64,000 nucleotides of DNA from Pelagibius litoralis. Its GTDB lineage: Bacteria > Pseudomonadota > Alphaproteobacteria > Kiloniellales > DSM-21159. The DNA lies in the NCBI GenBank assembly GCA_029287455.1, contig JARFRB010000092.1:1-64000 (forward strand). The letters are read 5' to 3'. Shown here piece by piece: positions 29,941 to 44,428 of this stretch (positions are counted from its first letter, which is position 1; each line of letters opens with the position of its first letter). The notes below the pieces were generated by a model. That model was given only the letters and a program-made list of their open reading frames with translations, was not told the origin of the DNA and did not search any database. The position numbers and the translations under genes were made by a program.

Positions 29941-31248
29941 ATGGCCGAAAGTCTTGAGAAGGTCGCGAAGGAAAAGGGGATCAAGTACTTCCTCATCAGC
30001 TTCGTGGATCTGTTCGGCGTGCTGCGCGCCAAGCTGGTGCCGGCCGCGGCGATCGGGCAAATGCAAAAGGACGGGGCGGGCTTCGCGGGTTTCGCGACCT
30101 GGCTGGATATGACGCCGGCCCACCCGGACATGTTCGGCAAGCCCGACCCGGACAGCCTGATCGTGTTGCCGTGGAAGCCCGAGGTGGCTTGGCTTGCGAG
30201 CGATCTTTGGATGGACGATGTGCCGGTCGAAGCCAGCCCCCGCGTCGCCCTCAAGCGCCAAATCGAGAAGGCCGCCAAGCAAGGCTACCGGCTGAAGAGC
30301 GGGGTGGAGTGCGAGTACTTCCTGCTGACTCCGGACGGCGCCGCGATTTCCGATGCCCGCGATACGCAGGGCAAGCCGTGTTACGACCAGTCCGCGCTGA
30401 TGCGCCGCTACGACGTGATCTCCGAGATCTGCGATTCGATGCTGGCGCTCGGCTGGGGCGCCTATCAGAACGACCATGAGGACGCCAACGGCCAGTTCGA
30501 GATGAACTGGACCTATGACGATTGTCTGGTCACCGCAGACCGCCATGTTTTTTTCAAGTACATGGTGAAAGAAGTCGCGGAAAAGCATGGAATGCGGGCA
30601 ACTTTCATGCCGAAACCCTTCGCCGATCTCACGGGCAACGGCTGCCACGCGCATGTTTCGATTTGGGACAAGGCCGGCAAGAAGAACCTGTTCCACGATA
30701 AGAAGGGCGAGCTTGGCATGAGCACGCTGGCCTACAGCTTCCTGGGCGGGGTCCTACACAACGCGGACTCCTTGGCGGCGATCTTCAATCCCGCCGTGAA
30801 CAGCTACAAGCGCATCGATGCCACGGTGACGCTGTCGGGCGCCACCTGGTCGCCGAACGCCATCAGCTATACCGGCAACAACCGCACCCACATGGTGCGC
30901 ATCCCGGAGGCGGGGCGCTTCGAGGTGCGCCTGGCGGATGGGGCGGCCAATCCCTACTTGCTTCAAGCCGGCCTGCTTGCGGCTGGCCTCGATGGGATCG
31001 CGGAGTCGCGCGACCCCGGCCAGCGCCTCGACATCAACATGTACACGGACGGCCACAAGCTGAAGCGGGTGCGCAAGCTGCCGCTGAACCTCCTCGACGC
31101 CATCAGGCTCTTCGATAAGAGCAAGACGGCCAGAGCCGCGTTCGGCGACCAACTCGTCAATGCATACGTCAAGCTGAAGCTTCAGGATTGGCAGGCCTAC
31201 AGCACGGCCATCAGCGATTGGGAAAGATCGACCACGCTGGATTGCTAA
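29941..31248 (+). CDS. glnT: Type III glutamine synthetase-like / gamma-glutamylmethylamide synthetase-like
   Basis: 435 residues with the glutamine-synthetase fold: N-terminal beta-grasp (FVDLFGVLRAKLVPA), ECEYFLL with metal-binding Glu residues, the ATP-site segment NGCHAHVSIWD, a substrate loop NSYKRI and RIPEAGRFEVRLADG. Proteins of this size beside glxBCD are known as GlnT in rhizobia and as GmaS (gamma-glutamylmethylamide synthetase) in methylotrophic roseobacters. The sequence alone does not settle which amine is used. ATG at 29941. The operon ends here; the next gene is convergent. Confidence 0.9.
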   Translation: MAESLEKVAKEKGIKYFLISFVDLFGVLRAKLVPAAAIGQMQKDGAGFAGFATWLDMTPAHPDMFGKPDPDSLIVLPWKPEVAWLASDLWMDDVPVEASPRVALKRQIEKAAKQGYRLKSGVECEYFLLTPDGAAISDARDTQGKPCYDQSALMRRYDVISEICDSMLALGWGAYQNDHEDANGQFEMNWTYDDCLVTADRHVFFKYMVKEVAEKHGMRATFMPKPFADLTGNGCHAHVSIWDKAGKKNLFHDKKGELGMSTLAYSFLGGVLHNADSLAAIFNPAVNSYKRIDATVTLSGATWSPNAISYTGNNRTHMVRIPEAGRFEVRLADGAANPYLLQAGLLAAGLDGIAESRDPGQRLDINMYTDGHKLKRVRKLPLNLLDAIRLFDKSKTARAAFGDQLVNAYVKLKLQDWQAYSTAISDWERSTTLDC

Positions 31249-31252
31249 GGGG

Positions 31253-32071
31253 CTAGCGCGGAAACAGGAATGTGAACTGTAGGCGCAGGGACCAGTCGGC
31301 GCCGTTTTCCGGCGATTCCACATTGTAGAAGCTTTGCGCCTGCAGGTTCACCGCTTGCTCCCCGATCTTGAAGACTCGGCCTGCCCCGCCGCCCACCGGC
31401 ACGCTCCAGCGCTCGCTCGAATCCGCGTCCCAATTCGCCGTTATGATCGGCGAACCGACCAGATACCAGCCCTCGGGCAGGTTGTAGTTTACGAAGGGCT
31501 GGGCCAGGAATTGGTTCACGCTGTTTCGATCGTCGCTGCCGGTAAAGGACCAGAGTTGACGGACCAAGGCGCCGTAGACCCAAGGCGGGTCAATGGACAG
31601 CGCAACGGCACTTGGGCCGGCGCTCCATTTCTCGCTGCCCAGGCGATCGGACGTCGCCGATGCCGCCGTGAGCGATGGCCCCACATCCCAGGTGAGGGAT
31701 CCCGAGTCAGCCGGAGATAGAAAGGCTGTAAGATTGATGTCGCCCAAACCAAACTTGTCCCCTCGATCAATGTCATCCGTGGAGTTGGGCAAGGAATCCG
31801 CGACTGATGGGAGATAGACAATCGGAACGATCGTCCGGGTGATGAGGTTCCAGTCTCCGAGAGCAAAGGGCATGACAGGCTGAATGCTCAGCACATTCGC
31901 CGTGTCTTCGTCGGGCCCGACGCCGAAGTAGGTGTTGTTCTGAAAAGGCAGGCTGACCATGTCGGCAACCGGATTTTGCGCCGCGGTCGCCAGATCGTCA
32001 TTCGCGAGGCTAGGGCCCGCCAACGCGGACAGCATGCAGGCAATAACGCATCTCGCGCTTGCTGTTCTCAC
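31253..32071 (-). CDS. Outer-membrane beta-barrel-like protein (neuromedin U / MetA-pathway type)
   Basis: 272 residues with a signal peptide (about 1-23, ending LAGPSLA-ND). The rest is rich in alternating polar/aromatic beta strands with an aromatic C-terminus (LRLQFTFLFPR), as in small outer-membrane barrels. LPFQNNTYFGVGP and DWNLITRTIVPIVYLP resemble the group labelled neuromedin U or phenol-degradation MetA-like transporters. GTG at 32071 is chosen because it leaves a complete signal peptide; the ATG at 32035 would cut it short. Divergent from the membrane gene at 32222 across a palindrome. Cargo is unknown. Confidence 0.7.
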   Translation of the reverse strand: MRTASARCVIACMLSALAGPSLANDDLATAAQNPVADMVSLPFQNNTYFGVGPDEDTANVLSIQPVMPFALGDWNLITRTIVPIVYLPSVADSLPNSTDDIDRGDKFGLGDINLTAFLSPADSGSLTWDVGPSLTAASATSDRLGSEKWSAGPSAVALSIDPPWVYGALVRQLWSFTGSDDRNSVNQFLAQPFVNYNLPEGWYLVGSPIITANWDADSSERWSVPVGGGAGRVFKIGEQAVNLQAQSFYNVESPENGADWSLRLQFTFLFPR

Positions 32072-34196: not shown

Positions 34197-35792
34197 ATGC
34201 GAGATAGACACAGTATTGTTCCCGCCACGATTGTGGCGGGGTGTTTGGCTTTCGGGATTCATAGCGCCGCGGCGCCCGCGCAGGCGCAAGACCAGAAGCC
34301 AAACATCTTGGTTATTTGGGGCGACGATATCGGGCAATCCAACGTGAGCGCCTACACCAAGGGCGTGGTTGGCTACCGCACACCGAACATCGACCGCATC
34401 GCCTCGGAAGGCATGATCTTCACGGATTACTACGGCGAGCAAAGCTGCACGGCGGGGCGCTCCTCCTTTATCACCGGCCAAAGCGTCTTCCGCACAGGCC
34501 TATCCAAGGTCGGCCTGCCTGGCGCCGAGCTTGGCATGCGCACCGAGGATCCGACGATCGCGGCCTTGCTGAAGGCCGAAGGCTACGCGACCGGACAGTT
34601 CGGAAAGAACCATCTTGGGGACCGCGACGAGCATTTGCCGACCAATAACGGCTTCGACGTTTTCTACGGCAACCTTTATCACCTCAACGCCGAGGAAGAG
34701 CCGGAGAACGAAGACTATCCGGGCGACATGGTATTGGCGGACGGGCAGACCTTCCGTGAGAAGTTCGGGCCACGCGGTGTCATCAGCTCGCGCGCCACGG
34801 CCGATGGCGGACAGGAAATCGAGGACACCGGCCCGCTTACACGCAAGCGCATGGAGACCGTGGACGACGATACTTCGGACCGCGCCATCGCCTGGATACG
34901 CGAACAGCATGCCGCCGGCGTGCCCTGGTTTGTCTGGTGGAACGGAACGCGCATGCACTTCCGCACCCACGTTAAGGAGGAACTGCGCGGCATATCCGGC
35001 CAGGACGAGTACGCGGATGGCATGGTCGAGCACGACATGCACGTCGGCAAGTTCCTCGAGCTGCTGGATGAGCTTGGCATCGCTGATAACACGCTTGTCT
35101 TCTATTCCACCGACAACGGACCGCACATGAACACCTGGCCCGATGCGGCTTGGAGCCCCTTCCGCGGCGAGAAGAACTCGAACTGGGAAGGCGGCTGGCG
35201 GGTTCCGGCGGCAGTGCGCTGGCCCGGCAAGATCGAGCCCGGCAGCGTGAGCAATGAAATCGTCCACCACATGGATTGGTTCCCGACGATGCTGGCCGTG
35301 GCCGGCCGCTCCGACGTCAAGGATGAATTGCTCCAGGGTGGCGTGGAAGCCATCGGGCGCGAGTACAAGGTGCATCTCGACGGCTACAACATCCTGCCGC
35401 TTCTCACCGGCGAAACCGACAAGAGCCCGCGCCGAGAGATCTTCTACTTCTCGGACGACGGCGACCTCACGGCCCTGCGCTATGACGATTGGAAGCTGAT
35501 CTTCATGGAGCAGCGTGCGGCGGGGACATTGCTGGTCTGGCAGAATCCGTTTACGCCGCTGCGCATTCCCTACATCTTCCACCTGCGCCGCGATCCTTAC
35601 GAGCGGGCAACCATTACCTCCAATACCTACTACGACTGGCTTCTCGACCGGGCTTACTTGCTAGTTCCGGCTCAGGCCTACGTCGGCCAGTTCTTGGAGA
35701 CCTTCCAGGAGTTCCCGCCGCGCCAGAAAGCCGCGAGCTTCAGCCTGGATCAGGTCATGGATAAGCTCTCAAGCACGGTCGGCGCGAACTGA
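34197..35792 (+). CDS. Type I sulfatase (arylsulfatase family), exported
   Basis: 531 residues with an N-terminal signal peptide (about 1-30, ending APAQA-QD). The fold starts at KPNILVIWGDDIGQSN, where Asp43 and Asp44 are metal ligands. The active-site motif CTAGRSS at 84-90 carries Cys84, which becomes formylglycine; the variant C-x-A-G-R replaces C-x-P-S-R, as in a known subgroup. Later motifs are GKNHLGD, VFYSTDNGPHMNTWP and MDWFPTMLA. It would hydrolyse a sulfate ester in the periplasm; substrate unknown. ATG at 34197 has GGGAGG upstream. A formylglycine-generating enzyme is not in the window. Confidence 0.92.
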   Translation: MRDRHSIVPATIVAGCLAFGIHSAAAPAQAQDQKPNILVIWGDDIGQSNVSAYTKGVVGYRTPNIDRIASEGMIFTDYYGEQSCTAGRSSFITGQSVFRTGLSKVGLPGAELGMRTEDPTIAALLKAEGYATGQFGKNHLGDRDEHLPTNNGFDVFYGNLYHLNAEEEPENEDYPGDMVLADGQTFREKFGPRGVISSRATADGGQEIEDTGPLTRKRMETVDDDTSDRAIAWIREQHAAGVPWFVWWNGTRMHFRTHVKEELRGISGQDEYADGMVEHDMHVGKFLELLDELGIADNTLVFYSTDNGPHMNTWPDAAWSPFRGEKNSNWEGGWRVPAAVRWPGKIEPGSVSNEIVHHMDWFPTMLAVAGRSDVKDELLQGGVEAIGREYKVHLDGYNILPLLTGETDKSPRREIFYFSDDGDLTALRYDDWKLIFMEQRAAGTLLVWQNPFTPLRIPYIFHLRRDPYERATITSNTYYDWLLDRAYLLVPAQAYVGQFLETFQEFPPRQKAASFSLDQVMDKLSSTVGAN

Positions 35793-35810
35793 CCCGAATG
35801 TCTGTGCCGA

Positions 35811-35838
35811 CAGCCCCTCTTCCGCGGGAGAGGGGCTG
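35811..35838 (+). terminator. Strong stem-loop between sulfatase and HAD genes
   Basis: CAGCCCCTC pairs perfectly with GAGGGGCTG around a 10-base loop. It is followed only by GTTTG, so it may act as a partial terminator or an mRNA-stability element that lowers expression of the downstream HAD-octaheme genes relative to the sulfatase. Confidence 0.5.
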
Positions 35839-35859
35839 TTTGCCGCTTTGGAGGATGGG

Positions 35860-36837
35860 ATGTTTCTTCGCGGTCTTGTAATTCTCGCCTGCGCCTTTGC
35901 CGCGTTTCCTGCCTTGGCCGATCCCTTGCCGTCATGGAATGACGGGCCGGCGAAGCGCGCGATTTTGGAGTTTGTACTGGATGTCACCACCGAGGGCCGG
36001 CCGACCTATGTTCCGCCGTCCGATCGGATCGCTGTTTTCGACAACGACGGCACGCTGTGGAGCGAGCAACCCCTCTACGTGCAGCTCGCCTTCGCCCTCG
36101 ACCGGGTCAAGGCGCTGGCGCCCGAGCACCCGGAATGGCGGGACCAGGAGCCCTTCAAGTCGGTCCTCGCCGGCGATATCGAGGGCGTCAAGGCCAGCGG
36201 CATGGACGGGGTCGTCAAGATCATCGGCGCCACCCACGCCGGGAACACCACCGAGGAGTTCGAGGAGACCGTTGTCGAGTGGCTGGAAACCGTGCGCCAT
36301 CCGGTTTACGACCGGCCCTACACCGACCTGGTCTATCAGCCGATGCTGGAACTCCTGGAGTACCTGCGCGCCCAGGAGTTCAAGACTTTCATCGTGTCAG
36401 GGGGCGGGATCGCCTTCATGCGGCCCTGGACGGAGGCGGTGTATGGGATTCCGCCCGAGCAGGTGATCGGCTCGCGCATCAAAATGCAATACGAAGTTAG
36501 GGACGGCGTGCCTGTCATCGTCCGTTTGCCCGAAATCGACTTCGTCGACGACAAGGAGGGCAAGCCGATCGGCATCGAGAAGATGATCGGCCGACGGCCC
36601 ATCGCCGCGTTCGGAAACTCCGACGGCGACTTCGCGATGCTCGAGTGGACCACGGCGGGCGAGGGGAGGCGGCTTGGAGTTTTGATCCACCATGACGATG
36701 CGGAGCGGGAAAGCGCCTACGATCGCAACTCGCCAATCGGGCGACTCGACCGTGGCTTGGACGAAGCCCCCGAGCGCGGTTGGATCGTAACGAGCATGAA
36801 GAACGATTGGGCTGAAATTTTCCCACCGGCCCAGTGA
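35860..36837 (+). CDS. Exported HAD-superfamily phosphatase-like hydrolase
   Basis: 325 residues with a signal peptide (MFLRGLVILACAFAAFPALA, cut before DP). HAD motif I is VFDNDGTLW with nucleophile Asp61 and Asp63, motif II is the FIVSGGG segment and motif IV is FGNSDGDFAML. The family resembles periplasmic or lipoprotein HADs of the phosphoserine-phosphatase type; the substrate is unknown. ATG at 35860 has TTGGAGGATGGG directly upstream; the TTG at 35848 is rejected. Its TGA overlaps the GTG of the octaheme gene (GTGA), so the two are coupled. It follows the sulfatase on the same strand. Confidence 0.85.
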   Translation: MFLRGLVILACAFAAFPALADPLPSWNDGPAKRAILEFVLDVTTEGRPTYVPPSDRIAVFDNDGTLWSEQPLYVQLAFALDRVKALAPEHPEWRDQEPFKSVLAGDIEGVKASGMDGVVKIIGATHAGNTTEEFEETVVEWLETVRHPVYDRPYTDLVYQPMLELLEYLRAQEFKTFIVSGGGIAFMRPWTEAVYGIPPEQVIGSRIKMQYEVRDGVPVIVRLPEIDFVDDKEGKPIGIEKMIGRRPIAAFGNSDGDFAMLEWTTAGEGRRLGVLIHHDDAERESAYDRNSPIGRLDRGLDEAPERGWIVTSMKNDWAEIFPPAQ

Positions 36838-39107
36838 CGTTCCCGCTGGAATCGCCCTCGATTCTGGCGGCTCTCGCCGGCGCGAGCTTGGCATTGCTGG
36901 GTGCCGTGGCGGCGGAAGCACCTGCCGCGCTAGGCGCGGAGACAGAGGAAACACTCGCCGCGCCGGAGCATTCTCTGGTGAGCGAAGACTGCACCTCCTG
37001 CCACGCCGAACAAGCGGCGGCATGGGAGGCGTCACACCACTACCGCTCCATGCTTCCGGCGAGCGAGGGCTCTGTGCTCGGCGATTTCGACGAGCGCGTG
37101 GTGGAGCAGGATGGCCGCCCTGTGCGGTTCTTCCGGGAGAACGGCGGGTACTTCGTCGAGACTGAGGGCGAGGACGGCGCGGTGGGCGTCTTCGAGATTG
37201 CCTACACCTTCGGCTACGCCCCCCTGCAGCAGTACTTGATCGCGTTGCCCGACGGCCGCCTTCAGGCCCTGACCCTAGCGTGGGACAAGCACGCGGGCGC
37301 GTGGTTCGATCTCTATCCGGACCAGGAGTTCGCGCCGGGCGACGATCTGCACTGGACCGGGCAGCAAATGACTTGGAACTACATCTGTGCCGATTGTCAC
37401 TCGACGAACCTGCGCCGGAATTTCATGCCTGAGACCGCCAGCTACGAGACGACCTTCACCGAGGTGAATGTCGGCTGCCTGGCTTGTCACGGCGACAGTG
37501 TGGCTCACGTTGCCTGGGCGCAGGGCGACCGGGCCGGCGCGGCCCCGCCCATGCTGCTCGCGCAACCCGACCCGGACGCGGAGTTGCGCGTTTGCGGGCC
37601 TTGTCATGCCCGGCGTCAGAGCTTGTCGGACAGTTGGACGGCCGGCGCGCCGATCTTCGATCACTACGTGCCGGAAATACTGCGCGAGGCCTTGTATTAC
37701 CCGGATGGACAGATCGAGGAAGAAGTCTTCGTCTATGGTTCCTTCCTGCAAAGCCGCATGCACCGGGCGGGTGTGACCTGCTCCGATTGTCACGAGCCGC
37801 ACACCGGTGCCTTGCGCGCGACGGGAAACGCCGTCTGCACCCAATGCCACAGCGAGGCGCCCCCGGAGCGGTTTCCGGGGATCCTGCCCTTGGCCTACGA
37901 TTCACCGGCCCACCATTTTCATGAGCCGGGGAGCGAGGGCGCGCTTTGCGTCTCCTGCCACATGCCCGAGCGCACCTACATGCTCGTTGACCCTCGGCGC
38001 GATCACAGCTTCCGGGTCCCGCGGCCCGATCTCTCCGATGCCCTGGGCACGCCGAATGCCTGCATTCAATGCCACGCGGATCGAAGCAATGCTTGGGCCG
38101 CGGAAACGGTGCTGGAGTGGTACGGGCCGGACCGGCGGGACTCGCCACACTTCGGCGAAGCGATCCATCTTGGGCGGACCGGGGCTCCCGGTGCCGCCGA
38201 AGCTCTGGAAGCTCTTGCGCAAGACGAAACGCAGCCCGCCATCGCGCGGGCGACTGCGTTCAATCTCCTCGGGCGCTACCTAAACCCAGCGCGGTTTGCG
38301 GTGATGCGAGACGGGGTGCGCGATCCCGACCCCTTGATCCGCGTCTGGACCCTGCGGGGGCTGGACGCCTTACCTATCGAGGATCGGCCCCAGATGGCCG
38401 GCGACTTGCTGACGGACCCCACCTTGGCGGTTCGGGCCGAAGCCGCTCTTTTCTTGGCGCCGGTCCCGGACGAGCTTTTGACGGCCGAGCAGCGAGAGGC
38501 TTATGGCGCCGCGGCGCGCGATTTCCTCGCTGTGCAAGCGGCATCCGCCGAACGCGCCGAGGCGCAGCATTCGCTCGGTGTTTTCCACGATGCGCGCGGC
38601 GAGGGCAAGCAGGCCGAGGCGGCCTACCGCAAGGCCCTTGAGCGGGATCCGGGCTTCGTTCCCGCCTACGCCAATCTGGCCGAGCGTTATCGTCAACTTG
38701 GTGACGTGGGCCGGGAGGGAGCGCTGCTGCGCCGGGCGGTCCAATCGGCTCCAGAGGAAGCGGCCGCTCATTTCGCATTGGGTCTCTATCAAGTCCGGGC
38801 ACGCGACTATCAAGCCGCACTCGCTAGCCTGGAGCGCGCCAGGGAACTGGATCCAGACTCAGCGCGTTTCGCCTATGTGCACGCAGTGGCTCTTGATTCT
38901 CTCGGGCAGCGGCCCTTCGCCATCGAGAATTTGACCCAGGCCCTGGAGCGGCACCCCTGGGATCCTGACCTTCTGCGCACTCTAGCGATCCTTCTGGCGG
39001 AGTCCGGCGATGTCGAGAAAGCTCGGCCCTACGCGCAAAGACTTGTCGAGTTGGATCCTTTCGACCCCGACTCGCGTGGCCTGCTGCTCCAGCTCAAGGG
39101 CAATTAA
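36834..39107 (+). CDS. Octaheme c-type cytochrome with TPR repeats
   Basis: 757 residues starting with GTG at 36834 and a signal peptide of about 35 residues. Eight C-x-x-C-H haem sites lie at 53-57, 185-189, 215-219, 254-258, 316-320, 335-339, 372-376 and 410-414. After the haem domain come HEAT-like helices (about 430-560) and TPR repeats from about 575 to 750 (YRKALERDPGFVPAYANLAE, YQAALASLERARELDPDSA). A segment FGYAPLQQYLIALPDGRLQA between haems 1 and 2 is typical of cytochrome-TPR proteins related to cytochrome c554. It would be a periplasmic multi-electron carrier or reductase; the electron partner is unknown. It is translationally coupled to the HAD gene. Confidence 0.9.
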   Translation: MTFPLESPSILAALAGASLALLGAVAAEAPAALGAETEETLAAPEHSLVSEDCTSCHAEQAAAWEASHHYRSMLPASEGSVLGDFDERVVEQDGRPVRFFRENGGYFVETEGEDGAVGVFEIAYTFGYAPLQQYLIALPDGRLQALTLAWDKHAGAWFDLYPDQEFAPGDDLHWTGQQMTWNYICADCHSTNLRRNFMPETASYETTFTEVNVGCLACHGDSVAHVAWAQGDRAGAAPPMLLAQPDPDAELRVCGPCHARRQSLSDSWTAGAPIFDHYVPEILREALYYPDGQIEEEVFVYGSFLQSRMHRAGVTCSDCHEPHTGALRATGNAVCTQCHSEAPPERFPGILPLAYDSPAHHFHEPGSEGALCVSCHMPERTYMLVDPRRDHSFRVPRPDLSDALGTPNACIQCHADRSNAWAAETVLEWYGPDRRDSPHFGEAIHLGRTGAPGAAEALEALAQDETQPAIARATAFNLLGRYLNPARFAVMRDGVRDPDPLIRVWTLRGLDALPIEDRPQMAGDLLTDPTLAVRAEAALFLAPVPDELLTAEQREAYGAAARDFLAVQAASAERAEAQHSLGVFHDARGEGKQAEAAYRKALERDPGFVPAYANLAERYRQLGDVGREGALLRRAVQSAPEEAAAHFALGLYQVRARDYQAALASLERARELDPDSARFAYVHAVALDSLGQRPFAIENLTQALERHPWDPDLLRTLAILLAESGDVEKARPYAQRLVELDPFDPDSRGLLLQLKGN

Positions 39108-39109
39108 TC

Positions 39110-39123
39110 CATACTTTAGTATG
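39110..39123. repeat. Short inverted repeat after the octaheme gene
   Basis: CATAC-TTTA-GTATG, five-base perfect arms, starts 3 bases after the octaheme stop and lies 66 bases before the porin gene. It is not GC-rich and has no T-run, so it is a possible operator for the porin gene rather than a terminator. Confidence 0.3.
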
Positions 39124-39188
39124 CTTTAGGGCGAGTCTCCGGTAAGATCGCGGCCAGGGACTTCTCGGGGGTATTGGACGAGGCTGGG

Positions 39189-40487
39189 ATGATGAAGCGA
39201 TCCGGTGTTTGGGCCGCTTGGCGATTTGGAGTCGGTGCGGCCTACCTTGTGGCGTTGGCTTCGCTCGGTGGTGAGGCACGAGCCGGTGCGCTTTGGGCCT
39301 ACGAGGACGGTGGTCCCTCGGTGGGCACCGCCTCGGCCGGGCAAGCTGCCATGGCGCTGGATGCCTCCACGGTGCGCGGCAATCCCGCGGGCATGACGCG
39401 CTTGGAGGGCAACCAGATCCTGGTGGGAATCCAGCCTTTGATTCTGGACGCGCGCTTCGATCGGGACCGGGATTCGCCCTTTGGCGGCGGCAATGGCGGC
39501 CAGGCTGGCGCGGTCTTCCCAAGCGGCGGGCTGTACTATTCCCACAGCATCACCGAGGACTTCAAGGCGGGCTTGCTCTTCGGCTCCTATCTCGGGCTGG
39601 GGGTGGACTACGACAACGATTGGGCGGGCCGCTACTACTCTCAGGAAGCGACCTTGGGGACGATCAGCATCATCCCGGCGGCGGCCTACCGCTTCACGCC
39701 CTGGCTTTCCCTGGGCGGTGGTGTCGGCATGCAGTACGCCACCTTGGATCAGAGGGCGGCGATCAACAATCAGCCGACCGACGGAGCCGGCTTCCCGGAC
39801 GGCCAATTGAGACTGGACGACGACAGCTGGGCACCTGTCGGCTACGTCGGCGTTCTCTTGGAGCCAAGCGCCGACACCCGCTTCGGAGTCACCTACTTCA
39901 GCGAAGCCGATCACGAATTCAACGACGCCGTCGAATTGCGCGGCGTCGGCCCGAATTTGCAGCAATCGCTCGGGCGGCTGAACGGGGCGAGCGCCGACTT
40001 GGACATCACCATTCCTCAGAGCCTGATGGTGAGCGCCTTTCATCAACTCACCCCCAAGCTTGCCTTGATGGGAAATGTGACCTGGCAGGATTGGAGCCGC
40101 TTTGGGGAGACGAACGTCACCGTTGATTCGGCGAATACGACAAGCTTTACCCAAGACCGCAACTTCAACGACACCTGGCAGCTGGCCCTCGGCGCCATGT
40201 ACCGCATCGACCAGAACTGGCTGGTGTCCAGCGGCATCGCCTACGACACCTCTCCGGTGAAGAACAAGGACCGCACGCCGGATCTGCCGGTCGATCGCCA
40301 GATACGGCTTTCGGCGGGGGTTCAGTACTTCTTCACCGAGACCAACAAGATCGGCCTCGCCTATACCTACATGGACGCGGGCGACGCGGACATTCGCCAG
40401 TCCGGCCCGGTCAGGGGCACGGTGGAGGGTAACTACAGCTCCAACAGCCTGCACGCGATCGCCTTGTACACGAACTGGAAATTCTAG
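39189..40487 (+). CDS. OmpP1/FadL-type outer-membrane channel
   Basis: 432 residues with a signal peptide ending near GGEARAGA. The N-terminal hatch has the FadL landmark GTASAGQAAMALDASTVRGN, followed by PAGMTRLEGNQILVG; the rest is a barrel of about 14 strands ending in an aromatic Phe (ALYTNWKF). FadL proteins take up hydrophobic compounds such as fatty acids or aromatics. ATG at 39189 or the adjacent 39192 both work, with GAGGCTGGG upstream. It follows the octaheme gene on the same strand with an 81-base gap, which suggests the cluster deals with a hydrophobic, perhaps sulfated, substrate. Confidence 0.9.
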   Translation: MMKRSGVWAAWRFGVGAAYLVALASLGGEARAGALWAYEDGGPSVGTASAGQAAMALDASTVRGNPAGMTRLEGNQILVGIQPLILDARFDRDRDSPFGGGNGGQAGAVFPSGGLYYSHSITEDFKAGLLFGSYLGLGVDYDNDWAGRYYSQEATLGTISIIPAAAYRFTPWLSLGGGVGMQYATLDQRAAINNQPTDGAGFPDGQLRLDDDSWAPVGYVGVLLEPSADTRFGVTYFSEADHEFNDAVELRGVGPNLQQSLGRLNGASADLDITIPQSLMVSAFHQLTPKLALMGNVTWQDWSRFGETNVTVDSANTTSFTQDRNFNDTWQLALGAMYRIDQNWLVSSGIAYDTSPVKNKDRTPDLPVDRQIRLSAGVQYFFTETNKIGLAYTYMDAGDADIRQSGPVRGTVEGNYSSNSLHAIALYTNWKF

Positions 40488-40552
40488 ACGGCGCGTTACC
40501 CGACTCGCAGGAAGGTTTCGCCCAGATCACGAAACCCGCTAGTCTTCCGGCC

Positions 40553-41887
40553 ATGAGTTTCACGCCCTTCGAATCGACATTGTTCTCCGGCATCTTCAGC
40601 GACCCGGAGCTGGCGCGCATCCTCTCCGATCGATCCGCCGTCGAAAAGATGGTCAGGTTCGAGCGGGCGCTGGCGCTTGCCGAGGGTGCGGCCGGGGTCA
40701 TTCCGGCCGAAGCGGCGGCGGGGATCGATTCCGCCTTGCTGGATTACCTGCCCGATCCAAAAGCCTTGGCCGAGGGCACGGAGCGGGCGGGGGTCCCCGT
40801 TCCGGCATTGGTGGAGGCCCTGCGCGCCCGGGTTGGGGGCACGGCCGCCGGGTTCCTGCACTGGGGTGCCACCTCGCAGGATGTGATGGACACGGCACTC
40901 GTTCTGCAGCTTGGCGAGGCCCTGCGGATTTTCGAGGCGCGCTTGGACCGTGTGATCTCCGCACTTTGCGCCCTGGCGGAGGGGCACCGCCAAACCTTCA
41001 TGGTCGGGCGGACCCGCGGGCAGCAAGCCGCGCCCACGTGCTTTGGCCTCAAAGCCGCTAACTGGCTTTTGCCGTTGGTGCGCCACCGGCGGCGGTTGTC
41101 CGAATTGCGGCCGCGAGTCCTGGTGCTGTCCTTTGGCGGCGCCGTCGGGAACCTTTCGGTTTTGGGGGAGCAGGCGGCGTCCGTCGCGGACACGCTGGCC
41201 CGGACACTTAACTTGCGGGCCCCGCCGATCCCGTGGCATGCGCAGCGAGACGGCCTGATCGAATGTGCCTTCTGGTGCGCCCTCGTCACCGGCTCCTTGG
41301 GCAAGATCGCGCAAGACGTGCTGCTCATGTCTCAAAGCGAAATCGGCGAGCTGAAGGAGGGTGGGCAAGGCCGGGGCGGGTCGTCGACAATGCCGCAGAA
41401 GGCCAATCCCGTGCGCTCGGAGACGATCTTGGCGCTCACGCGCCACACGGTCGGATTGTCGGGCCAAATGGCGCAGACCGCGGTTCATGCCATGGAACGG
41501 GACGGCGCGGCCTGGCAAGGCGAATGGCTTGCGTTCGGCCAGATCCTGGGTGGCTGCGGGGCGGCCTTGATTCAGGCGGAAGCCTTGGTGTGGGATTTGC
41601 CAGTGGATCGCGGGCGTATGGCCGAGAATCTTGCCAATGCGAAGGGCTTGCCTTTCGCGGAGGCAGCAAGCTTTGCCCTGTCCGCCCATATGCCGCGCGC
41701 CGAAGCGCAAGCCTTGGTCAAGAAGGCCTGTATCGAAGTCGGACAATCGGGCCGCGACCTCATGGAGGTACTCGCCGAGATGAGCGAGATCAAGCTTGAT
41801 TGGGAGGCGCTCCGCGACCCGGAGACGCATCTGGGGACCAGCGGTGCCTTCATCGACCGCGCCCTTGGGGAAGCGCGGCGTCTTTAG
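40553..41887 (+). CDS. Fumarase/adenylosuccinate-lyase superfamily enzyme, PcaB-like
   Basis: 444 residues. The superfamily signature is GSSTMPQKANPVR at about 278-290; LHWGATSQDVMDTA and RTRGQQAAPTCFG are the other two active-site blocks. In length and motif spelling it is nearest to 3-carboxy-cis,cis-muconate cycloisomerase (PcaB), an enzyme of the protocatechuate branch of the beta-ketoadipate pathway. Adenylosuccinate lyase and argininosuccinate lyase fit less well. No other pca gene is nearby, so the role is uncertain. ATG at 40553; convergent with the CoxL-like gene. Confidence 0.8.
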   Translation: MSFTPFESTLFSGIFSDPELARILSDRSAVEKMVRFERALALAEGAAGVIPAEAAAGIDSALLDYLPDPKALAEGTERAGVPVPALVEALRARVGGTAAGFLHWGATSQDVMDTALVLQLGEALRIFEARLDRVISALCALAEGHRQTFMVGRTRGQQAAPTCFGLKAANWLLPLVRHRRRLSELRPRVLVLSFGGAVGNLSVLGEQAASVADTLARTLNLRAPPIPWHAQRDGLIECAFWCALVTGSLGKIAQDVLLMSQSEIGELKEGGQGRGGSSTMPQKANPVRSETILALTRHTVGLSGQMAQTAVHAMERDGAAWQGEWLAFGQILGGCGAALIQAEALVWDLPVDRGRMAENLANAKGLPFAEAASFALSAHMPRAEAQALVKKACIEVGQSGRDLMEVLAEMSEIKLDWEALRDPETHLGTSGAFIDRALGEARRL

Positions 41888-41911: not shown

Positions 41912-44236
41912 TCACACCTTGCCGCGCGCTTGCGCAATCGCCCGCCAGACCCGTTGAGGTGTTGCTGGCATGTCGATGTGTCCGACCCCAAGTGGGCGCA
42001 GGGCATCGTGCAGCGCGTTCATGACCGATGGCAGGGAGCCTGCGCAGCCGGCCTCTCCGCATCCCTTGGCGCCCAGGCTATTGGTGGTGGCGGGCACCGG
42101 ATGGCTGGCGAAGGCAAAGGCTGGCAGGTCGGCCGCGCGTGGCAGCGCGTAGTCCATGAAGGAGCCAGTCAAGAGCTGACCCTCTTCGTCGAAGACCACC
42201 TCCTCCATCGTCGCCTGGCCGATGCCCTGCACCACGCCGCCGTGGGCTTGGCCCTCGACCAGCAACGGGTTCACGATGGTGCCGAAGTCGTTGACCATGC
42301 GGTAGCGAACCACTTCCACCACGCCGGTTTCCGGGTCCACCTCCACCTCGGCGACGTGACAGCCGTTGGGGAAGGCCGAGGGTGTGGGGTCTTGCACCAG
42401 CGACACATCCAGCGTCGCCGGGATGCCTTCCGGCGGCGTGAGCCCTTGGCGCAGCTGCTCGGCGAGGTCCAGGATGTCGATGCTTCGGTCGGTGCCCGCC
42501 ACCACGAAGGATCCGGCGTGGAATTCGATATCCTCCACGGCGGTTTCCATGGCCTGGGCGGCGATCTCCTTGCCACGCTCGATGACGGCCTTGCTGGCGG
42601 TCACGATGGCGCCGCCGCTTGTCATGATCGAGCGCGAGCCCCCGGTACCGCCGCCGGCGATGAGTTCGTCGCTGTCGCCCTGCAGCAAGCGGATGCGGTC
42701 GAAGGGAATCCCTAGGTTCTCGTGCAAGACCTGGGCAAACGGTGTTGCGTGGCCCTGACCGTAGTCCAGGGTGCCTGTGATGATGGTCACCGTGCCGTCC
42801 GCCTCGAACCGCAAGCCGCCCATTTCCGGCCCCGGGGGTGCCGTGACCTCCAAGTAGCTGGTGATGCCAAGGCCGCGCAGCTTGCCTGCGACAGCGCTTT
42901 TCTCGCGCCGGTCCGGGAAGCCCGGCAGGTCGGCGAGCGCTACCGCCTCTTCCAGAATACCCGGGAAGTCACCGCTGTCGTAGACCATGCCGGAGGCGGC
43001 GGAATATGGGATCTCGCTGGGCTGCACAAGATTGCGGCGGCGCAGCTCGATGCGGTCTATCCCCATCTCCCCGGCGGCGACGTCGATCAAGCGCTCCATG
43101 TAGTAGTTGCCCTCGGGCCGGCCCGCGCCGCGATAGGCGGTGACCGGCGGCGTGTTGGTGAAGACGCAGCGCGAGGACACCTCGATCAGCGGTGTGCGGT
43201 AGACGCTGACCGTGTTCTTGACGATGTTGAGGCTCGGCATAAGCGGCGCTACGGGGGAAAGATAGGCCCCCATGTTGCCGAAGCCTGTGATCCGGACCGC
43301 GAGAAAGCGGCCCTCTTGGTCCAGCGCCAACTCGGCTTCGACTTCGTGGTCGCGGCCTTGGTGATCGGACAGGAAGCTCAAGGACCGCTCATCGGTCCAC
43401 TTGACCGGCCGGCCAAGCGCGCGGGCGGCGAAGAGGATCGCCACGTATTCCGGATAGACCGAGGCCTTCATGCCGAAGGAGCCACCGACGTTTCCGGTCA
43501 AGACCCGAAGCCGGTCCTTTTCGACGCCCAGGATCTCCGCCAACTGGTTGCGCATGGGAAACACGCCCTGGCAGCCGACGTGCAAGGTCCAGTGGTCTTG
43601 GGCGGCATCGTAGTCGGCAATTCCGGCACGTGGCTCCAGCGCGTTGACCACCACGCGGTTGTTCCGAAGCTTCAGGCGGGTGACATGCGCTGCCTCGGCG
43701 AAAGCTTCAGCGACCGCGTCCGCATCGCCGTAATGGTAGTCGAGCGCCACATTTCCGGGCGCATCCTCGTAGAGTTGTGGGGCCTTGGCCCCAACGGCCT
43801 CGGCCGCTTCGGTCACGCAAGGCAGGGGCTCGATGTCCTGAATGACGGCTTCCGCCGCATCCTTGGCCTGTTCCGGCGTTTCGGCCACGACAAGCGCCAG
43901 CGGGTCGCCGACATAGCGAACCCGCTCGCCTGCGAAGGCCCCGCGCCGGGGCTTGCGCAGATCGCTGCCGTCACGGTTCTTCAGGGGAATCAGGCATTTC
44001 AGGGAGCCATAGCCGGCCGCGTCGAGATCCGCGGCAGTGAAAATGCCAAGCACGCCAGGCATTTCCAGCGCGTCCGAGAGATCGAGATCGCGAATCCTAC
44101 CATGGGCGTAGTGGCTGCGAACGACGAAACCATGGGCTTGGCCCGGCAGGTTCACATCGTCCGTGTAGCGGCCTTCGCCGCGCAGGAGTTTCGGGTCCTC
44201 GCTGCGTGGCACGGATTGACCGACACCAAATTTCAT
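41912..44236 (-). CDS. Xanthine dehydrogenase/CoxL-family molybdopterin-binding subunit (orphan)
   Basis: 774 residues. Landmarks of the molybdenum hydroxylase large subunit are EDPKLLRGEGRYTDDV at the start, GSFGMKASVYPEY, the active-site loop AYRGAGRPEG and near the end GAKGCGEAGC with the catalytic Glu. AYRGAGRPE is the form II type, unlike the AYRCSFR loop of true CO dehydrogenase, so an aldehyde or heterocycle substrate is more likely. The partner iron-sulfur and FAD subunits (CoxS, CoxM type) are absent on both sides. I take ATG at 44236; ATG at 44272 would add 12 residues. Confidence 0.88.
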   Translation of the reverse strand: MKFGVGQSVPRSEDPKLLRGEGRYTDDVNLPGQAHGFVVRSHYAHGRIRDLDLSDALEMPGVLGIFTAADLDAAGYGSLKCLIPLKNRDGSDLRKPRRGAFAGERVRYVGDPLALVVAETPEQAKDAAEAVIQDIEPLPCVTEAAEAVGAKAPQLYEDAPGNVALDYHYGDADAVAEAFAEAAHVTRLKLRNNRVVVNALEPRAGIADYDAAQDHWTLHVGCQGVFPMRNQLAEILGVEKDRLRVLTGNVGGSFGMKASVYPEYVAILFAARALGRPVKWTDERSLSFLSDHQGRDHEVEAELALDQEGRFLAVRITGFGNMGAYLSPVAPLMPSLNIVKNTVSVYRTPLIEVSSRCVFTNTPPVTAYRGAGRPEGNYYMERLIDVAAGEMGIDRIELRRRNLVQPSEIPYSAASGMVYDSGDFPGILEEAVALADLPGFPDRREKSAVAGKLRGLGITSYLEVTAPPGPEMGGLRFEADGTVTIITGTLDYGQGHATPFAQVLHENLGIPFDRIRLLQGDSDELIAGGGTGGSRSIMTSGGAIVTASKAVIERGKEIAAQAMETAVEDIEFHAGSFVVAGTDRSIDILDLAEQLRQGLTPPEGIPATLDVSLVQDPTPSAFPNGCHVAEVEVDPETGVVEVVRYRMVNDFGTIVNPLLVEGQAHGGVVQGIGQATMEEVVFDEEGQLLTGSFMDYALPRAADLPAFAFASHPVPATTNSLGAKGCGEAGCAGSLPSVMNALHDALRPLGVGHIDMPATPQRVWRAIAQARGKV

Positions 44237-44428
44237 AGTCGCCAATTGGTTGGCGGTAAGCTGATCGTGCATGAAGCCCCCGAACCTTTCCATGGAAGCC
44301 CGGCTGGGTGAAGGGTCCGCCATGGCGCACCCCGACCCTCGAGTCCTAGGGGTGGAATAGGCGGCTGTCAAAGGTGACGATAGGAGACGCAGGCAACGGG
44401 GCAAGCTAGCTTTCGCTGTTCTTTGCGC

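Follow-up and report, generated by a model that had tools for sequence, protein, structure and literature searches.

The formylglycine (FGly) residue of sulfatases is, to our knowledge, generated solely by FGE (SUMF1, PF03781), which uses copper and O2, or by the radical-SAM enzyme anSME/AtsB (TIGR03942). A third sulfatase-maturation system has been suspected since 2007, as set out in the available parts of PMC6189696 and restated in those of PMC8379841. Here, we describe a gene cluster at positions 34197-41887 of a 64,000-nt stretch of Pelagibius litoralis DNA (hereafter the window; positions 1-64000 of contig JARFRB010000092.1; the assembly comprises 3.63 Mb in 141 contigs and is 96.3% complete), in which the gene for an S1 sulfatase (SULF) is followed by genes for a HAD-family hydrolase (HAD) and an octaheme c-type cytochrome (OCTA). 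From the way OCTA exchanges with FGE and anSME across genomes, we lean toward the view that it is a third, heme-based sulfatase-maturation system or is essential to one. Our literature search, whose scope lay outside subscription papers and preprints, found no multiheme cytochrome linked to sulfatase maturation. The available parts of PMC7159879, PMC6189696, PMC3920027 and PMC8379841 contain no such link, and those of PMC8528874, PMC5596340 and PMC5573963 mention sulfatases and multiheme proteins separately.

The genes of the cluster are as follows:

34197..35792, + strand: SULF, S1 sulfatase, Cys-type (CTAGR), 531 aa (PF00884, E 6.9e-47)
35848..36837, + strand: HAD, HAD-family hydrolase (PF12710; probable ATG at 35860)
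36834..39107, + strand: OCTA, octaheme c-type cytochrome (approximately residues 43-430) with C-terminal HEAT/TPR repeats (8 CxxCH)
39174..40487, + strand: FadL/TodX-type outer-membrane transporter (PF03349, E 2.2e-67)
40553..41887, + strand: PcaB/adenylosuccinate-lyase superfamily lyase, 3-carboxymuconate cycloisomerase-like (TIGR02426, 359 bits; cut-off 355.75)

Like OCTA, FGE adjoins the same SULF clade together with HAD and MoxR, and its sulfatase neighbors are nearly all Cys-type; OCTA differs from it in being a multiheme cytochrome, with PF03781 not among its Pfam matches at E ≤ 0.001. FGE is also sometimes exported: the FGEs of G382 and G282 adjoin SULF and look exported. An N-terminus of signal-peptide, lipoprotein or anchor-like type is seen in the canonical FGEs L179 (G382), L194 (G282), L136 (G061), L175, L177 and L181. 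anSME lies beside SULF in Klebsiella, Pantoea, Paraburkholderia and genomes G249, G288, G367 and G347, and is accompanied by MoxR in Klebsiella, Pantoea, G249, G288 and G367. Pfam and NCBIfam profile searches gave no radical-SAM match for OCTA, and its neighbors are Cys-type, whereas those of anSME are mostly Ser-type.

The preliminary description had reported four genes in a row on one strand, an overlap between the HAD and octaheme genes, and export of both the sulfatase and the HAD. All of this holds: SULF, HAD, OCTA and FadL are on the + strand, separated by 55, -4 and 66 bp, with the 4-bp overlap (GTGA) between HAD and OCTA, and the N-termini of SULF and HAD are signal-like. The lyase ORF (open reading frame), absent from that description, starts 65 bp past FadL on the same strand. 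SULF starts with an ATG, upstream of which lies AGGGAGGATC. Its PF00884 score of 160.6 bits (cut-off 25) identifies an S1 sulfatase domain, and a twin-Arg pattern was not flagged. The active-site motif CTAGRSSFITG fits the FGly site C/S-x-P/A-x-R, and the Cys is retained in all aligned relatives that cover the site; since the motif is Cys-type, FGly is expected to be needed. The NCBIfam arylsulfatase and choline-sulfatase models scored SULF far below their cut-offs and its closest PDB relative is 7aj0 "Arylsulfatase", so we leave the substrate unnamed. HAD matches PF12710 at 47.2 bits (cut-off 27), carries the DxD motif as DNDGT and matches PDB entry 4ovy at E 1.5e-133; FadL matches PF03349 at 227.8 bits (cut-off 29.7). 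A promoter and terminator scan of the cluster was uninformative (0 promoters found, 1.1 expected).

Exchange of OCTA, FGE and anSME beside SULF

The P. litoralis assembly yielded no anSME match (TIGR03942) at E ≤ 0.001 and no FGE match at E ≤ 1e-20. Its sole PF03781 protein lacks the Cys pair, which we take to be the hallmark of FGE from the known enzymes; the pair was then present in FGE matches at 29 of 30 fetched FGE loci, with at least one in each of 22 genomes. One candidate, L195 of G049, was not counted as FGE because it has no Cys pair. We then assembled 28 genomes with both SULF and OCTA, consisting of this genome and 27 picked by linkage, many of them metagenome-assembled genomes (MAGs). 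Canonical FGE was present in two of the 28 (G045, G061) and anSME above its cut-off in two (G076, G077), leaving 24 with neither, where the FGE check relied on PF03781 alone in 20 of the 27 linkage-picked genomes. PF03781 had no match in G063 and G075, and no FGE-like candidate was found in G272 and G389. G272, a single contig that is 100% complete, has neither FGE nor anSME, and its OCTA gene lies 195 bp from SULF. Desulfoluna (L115) carries SULF, OCTA and MoxR together with no canonical FGE or anSME. Desulfoluna is an anaerobe, and this combination would suit O2-independent chemistry.

To sample genomes by SULF alone, we took 397 genomes of the organism's own phylum (presumably Pseudomonadota) that were at least 90% complete and called SULF at E ≤ 1e-110. 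SULF was found in 53, this genome among them, and the other 52 were searched for OCTA, anSME and FGE alongside 20 SULF-negative genomes. OCTA was present in 32 of the SULF-positive genomes and in none of the SULF-negative ones; anSME was likewise found in 12 and 0, and FGE in 22 and 3. Each of the 20 SULF genomes that lack OCTA has either FGE (16) or anSME (4), and the 32 with OCTA divide into FGE (6), anSME (8) and neither (18). None of the 52 lacks all three, compared to 6.9 expected by global permutation, and the association of OCTA with the absence of FGE/anSME has a Fisher P of 1.3e-5 (by genus, 2.5e-5).

The same exchange is visible locally. We took a stretch of 10-20 kb spanning a single SULF from each genome. 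FGE/anSME occurred in 18 of the 52 stretches and OCTA in 22, with 12 having neither and none having both (P 2e-6 for the lack of overlap). For FGE alone (14 stretches) the overlap with OCTA is again 0 (P 8e-5), and counting OCTA only within 5 kb (16 stretches) retains the exclusion (P 2e-4). FGE/anSME genes lie 57-1560 bp from SULF and OCTA genes between 174 bp and 10.9 kb away. HAD is found in 9/18 FGE/anSME stretches and 10/22 OCTA stretches, and MoxR in 8/18 and 15/22. On a SULF tree in which "neither" loci carried their own label (G347 omitted for want of an ORF; six relatives and the window added), the OCTA label changes 11 times, 10 of them forced by starred branches, and the FGE label 9 times, 8 of them forced. 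The neighbor of SULF has switched repeatedly on this tree.

The residue to be modified follows the neighboring gene. SULF is Ser-type (STAGR) in all four anSME stretches, as are the sulfatases that adjoin anSME and MoxR in Klebsiella and Pantoea; the Paraburkholderia sulfatase beside anSME is CTAGR. The 28 motifs read from the 22 OCTA stretches are all Cys-type (CTAGR, 27; CVPGR, 1), as are 16 of the 18 from FGE stretches, the other two being STASR matches not traced to a gene. This pattern fits an OCTA route that acts on a thiol, as FGE does.

Conserved core of the cluster

Full-length OCTA homologs are present in related genomes. Nine related loci had a called OCTA ORF, and SULF (64-78% identity) lies within ~4 kb in six of them. 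In a seventh, G049, the genes for SULF, HAD, MoxR, DUF58, VWA, VWA, BatD and OCTA form a single row; the remaining two have more distant sulfatases (29-33%). HAD (57-63% identity) is present in four of the nine, often with MoxR, DUF58, VWA, VWA-TPR and BatD-like genes alongside. On a plasmid of Rhizobium leguminosarum, genes for an arylsulfatase, HAD and OCTA stand in the order seen in the window, although this sulfatase is just 34% identical to SULF. The trio occurs on plasmids of both R. leguminosarum and Sinorhizobium medicae (pSymA) (L322, L323) with another sulfatase subfamily (CTPGR), and the plasmid records annotate OCTA merely as "tetratricopeptide repeat protein".

We also examined 80 named OCTA loci, which come from a wide range of phyla and whose flanks are often short because many contigs are short. 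These flanks contain a sulfatase in 33 cases (19 with at least 45% identity to SULF), HAD in 8, MoxR in 8 and FadL in 1. When ORFs round OCTA were clustered, sulfatases accounted for 27/80 loci and every next family for at most 8/80. No canonical FGE or anSME was found near the 80 loci; there was one weak FGE-like match ~10 kb away in L132. SULF-linked members are dispersed over the OCTA tree, with 20 label changes, at least 10 of them forced. If OCTA serves sulfatases, genomes with OCTA should hold sulfatases, and we checked this prediction in 33 genomes, chosen from 46 named OCTA loci whose surroundings showed no sulfatase. An S1 sulfatase (E ≤ 1e-10) was present in 29 of the 33, a rate for which the background was not measured, and 28 of them have a Cys-type motif, the remaining one being an unread fragment.

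The conserved core is SULF, HAD and OCTA, and FadL is an occasional companion. A FadL-like gene is found in 2/52 SULF stretches (G134, 38%; G347, 28%), and another adjoins the Pantoea sulfatase (33%). We therefore rejected FadL as a core member, and likewise the PcaB-like lyase, which occurs in 0/52. A neighborhood survey of the four families, proposed in the preliminary description, accordingly found the linkage of sulfatase, HAD and octaheme genes and not that of FadL. For those three genes, which do recur as a set, the link that the description drew between an exported sulfatase and electron transfer on periplasmic hemes is borne out; FadL, with the 2/52 SULF and 1/80 OCTA loci above, drops out of the set.

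That description also suggested uptake and desulfation or dephosphorylation of a hydrophobic sulfated compound. In such a catabolic operon, OCTA would carry electrons from the oxidation of a hydrophobic alcohol or phenol released from a compound imported by FadL. The FadL and lyase genes downstream on the same strand suit this idea, as do the FadL genes beside SULF in Pantoea and in the G134 cluster. However, FadL and the lyase are rare or absent beside SULF elsewhere, and a catabolic carrier should not avoid FGE, yet no stretch holds both FGE and OCTA. OCTA occupies the position that FGE and anSME hold beside the same kind of sulfatase, which points to sulfatase maturation and away from a redox step in the breakdown of the sulfatase's product, and we regard the catabolic explanation as decidedly unlikely.

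Beside SULF in many relatives is a MoxR-DUF58-DUF4381-VWA-VWA-BatD ("aerotolerance") module (L201, L212-L216, L218, L219, many of L225-L251, L325, L327, L328 and L330). As this Bat/MoxR module accompanies SULF whether the third partner is FGE, anSME or OCTA, it may help to assemble or export sulfatases. MoxR-VWA was dropped as a candidate maturase because the window cluster lacks it and because it co-occurs with FGE and anSME too; the best MoxR of this genome (41%) is on a different contig.

Among the genes flanking the cluster, a molybdopterin hydroxylase large subunit (CO/aldehyde dehydrogenase-like; 41912-44404, - strand) converges on the lyase gene. Upstream, a type III glutamate-ammonia ligase (TIGR03105, 671 bits; 29941-31248, + strand) converges on the gene for a putative outer-membrane protein with no Pfam match (31253-32071, - strand). 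Relatives of this last protein are found near SULF or OCTA in L050, L076, L081, L106 and L322, and in 4/52 SULF stretches, making it somewhat commoner there than FadL.

Heme sites and predicted fold of OCTA

All eight heme motifs of OCTA are plain CxxCH, and their Cys and His residues are invariant across an 80-row alignment. Outside these motifs, the 80 sequences all share His 69, 323, 360, 363 and 391 as well as Met 309 and 383, and His 225 is present in 79 of them. With five or six such conserved His residues, some of the eight hemes may lack a His distal ligand. Heme c attachment occurs in the periplasm, and OCTA must therefore be periplasmic.

The full-length AlphaFold2 model of OCTA has a predicted local distance difference test score (pLDDT) of 91, and the heme domain modeled alone 91.6. 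Since fold searches with the whole model were swamped by TPR matches, we searched the heme domain on its own; fold families missing from the resulting match lists may still be related. The heme domain resembles OcwA (Z 19.4, 330 residues aligned, 3.3 Å; profile E 1.3e-25) and undecaheme 6qvm (Z 12.7), with lower-scoring matches to the octaheme sulfite reductase MccA, whose fold it may share (Z 8.5, 4.3 Å, 271 aligned), and to NrfA (Z ~5-6). All four are electron-transferring or catalytic multiheme proteins. OCTA differs from the multiheme oxidoreductases OcwA, MccA and NrfA in its eight plain CxxCH motifs, in the HEAT/TPR half that lies outside the matched domain and in its linkage to sulfatases. 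The active-site heme motif of MccA is a wide-spaced CX15CH, which OCTA does not have. Among NCBIfam models, equivalog and subfamily cytochrome models fell well short (the best, decaheme, gave 35-39 bits against cut-offs of 192 and 325), and just a generic doubled-CXXCH domain model passes.

This electron-carrier build, together with the TPR repeats, would also suit a helper. OCTA might be needed for maturation solely as an electron acceptor or chaperone, with another gene, perhaps the third system suspected in E. coli, supplying the catalyst of FGly formation. The discussion of such a third system in the available parts of PMC6189696 and PMC8379841 agrees with this, as does the presence in the P. 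litoralis genome of two apparently cytosolic Cys-type sulfatases (L003, L004) with no recognized maturase. Against it, OCTA sits beside SULF where the catalysts FGE and anSME sit, and the clustering of ORFs round OCTA gave no second constant family after the sulfatases. We consider a purely auxiliary OCTA unlikely, though it deserves some weight.

OCTA as a candidate maturation protein

We hypothesize that the cluster encodes a periplasmic sulfatase together with a maturation protein dedicated to it. SULF would be exported with its active-site Cys still unmodified, and the TPR/HEAT half of OCTA may hold the nascent or unfolded sulfatase. The octaheme half would then draw two electrons from the CTAGR Cys, along a path that we can only propose, giving a thioaldehyde whose hydrolysis would yield FGly and H2S, and the electrons would be passed on to the respiratory chain. 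OCTA would in this way replace FGE, with its copper and O2, and anSME, with its radical-SAM chemistry. Whichever maturase is present, HAD may belong to the sulfatase pathway or to sulfatase assembly, and so may the MoxR-DUF58-VWA-BatD module in the many relatives that have it.

That OCTA causes FGly formation is something we infer from genomic exchange. In a bolder form of the proposal, OCTA would do the catalysis and so represent a third FGly-generating class that uses periplasmic heme chemistry, no S-adenosylmethionine and perhaps no O2, and that is spread over many phyla, anaerobes like Desulfoluna among them. We put this form forward tentatively, as somewhat less likely than not. A precedent in function comes from MauG, a periplasmic diheme enzyme that oxidizes residues of methylamine dehydrogenase and builds its tryptophan tryptophylquinone (TTQ) cofactor. 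We liken OCTA to MauG by proposed function and not by homology.

Several observations weigh against a maturation role for OCTA. FGE or anSME is also present in 14 of the 32 OCTA genomes, and five of the 18 "neither" genomes (G390, G138, G215, G235, G339) carry OCTA either on a different contig from SULF or at a great distance from all listed SULF genes. Many OCTA genomes had their local stretches drawn so that OCTA fell inside, SULF-OCTA distances extend up to 10.9 kb, and the exclusion depends on distance and is weaker for anSME: in six f63 genomes with an OCTA-adjacent SULF (G142, G239, G284, G353, G373, G467), anSME lies 12-22 kb from that SULF on the same contig, outside the stretch. Counting these six as having both gives 6 overlaps compared to 10.2 expected (P 0.02), and in f63 genomes both maturation routes may coexist. 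No sulfatase was seen in the often short flanks of 47/80 OCTA loci, and the search at E ≤ 1e-10 gave no S1 sulfatase in 4 of the 33 OCTA genomes tested, each of these 4 being a MAG. Most SULF-adjacent FGEs look cytosolic, and radical-SAM proteins below the anSME cut-off are present in many genomes. The two further Cys-type sulfatases of this genome (L003, CGPSR; L004, CAPSR) have no obvious signal peptide and, being apparently cytosolic, are beyond the reach of a periplasmic OCTA; they may mean a further route, an FGE missed in a 96% complete assembly, or unmodified enzymes. Finally, OCTA could be just an electron acceptor or a chaperone and not the catalyst.

Lineage accounts for part of the signal, as permutation within families expects 0.94 genomes without all three genes, from which the observed 0 does not differ significantly (P 0.30). 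On the strictest form of this explanation, the exclusion would be mostly lineage, and SULF in the "neither" genomes would be unmodified or served by a divergent FGE-like or radical-SAM protein. PF03781 proteins without the Cys pair are indeed common, the co-location of anSME and OCTA at wide range in f63 points the same way, and unmodified choline sulfatase keeps a low multiple-turnover activity according to the available part of PMC6189696. However, the OCTA label is forced to change 10 times on the SULF tree, maturase states differ inside families f9, f19 and f63, the genomes G063, G075, G272 and G389 offer no PF03781 match or no FGE-like candidate, and the Ser/Cys residue tracks the neighboring maturase gene. 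We judge lineage as the main cause to be quite unlikely.

If OCTA is a maturation protein, its presence would explain how bacteria that have sulfatases and lack both FGE and anSME use sulfated compounds. It would add a heme-based path to a protein-derived aldehyde and give a function to the widespread OCTA family. The suspected third FGly system would thereby gain a named candidate, making the question directly testable.

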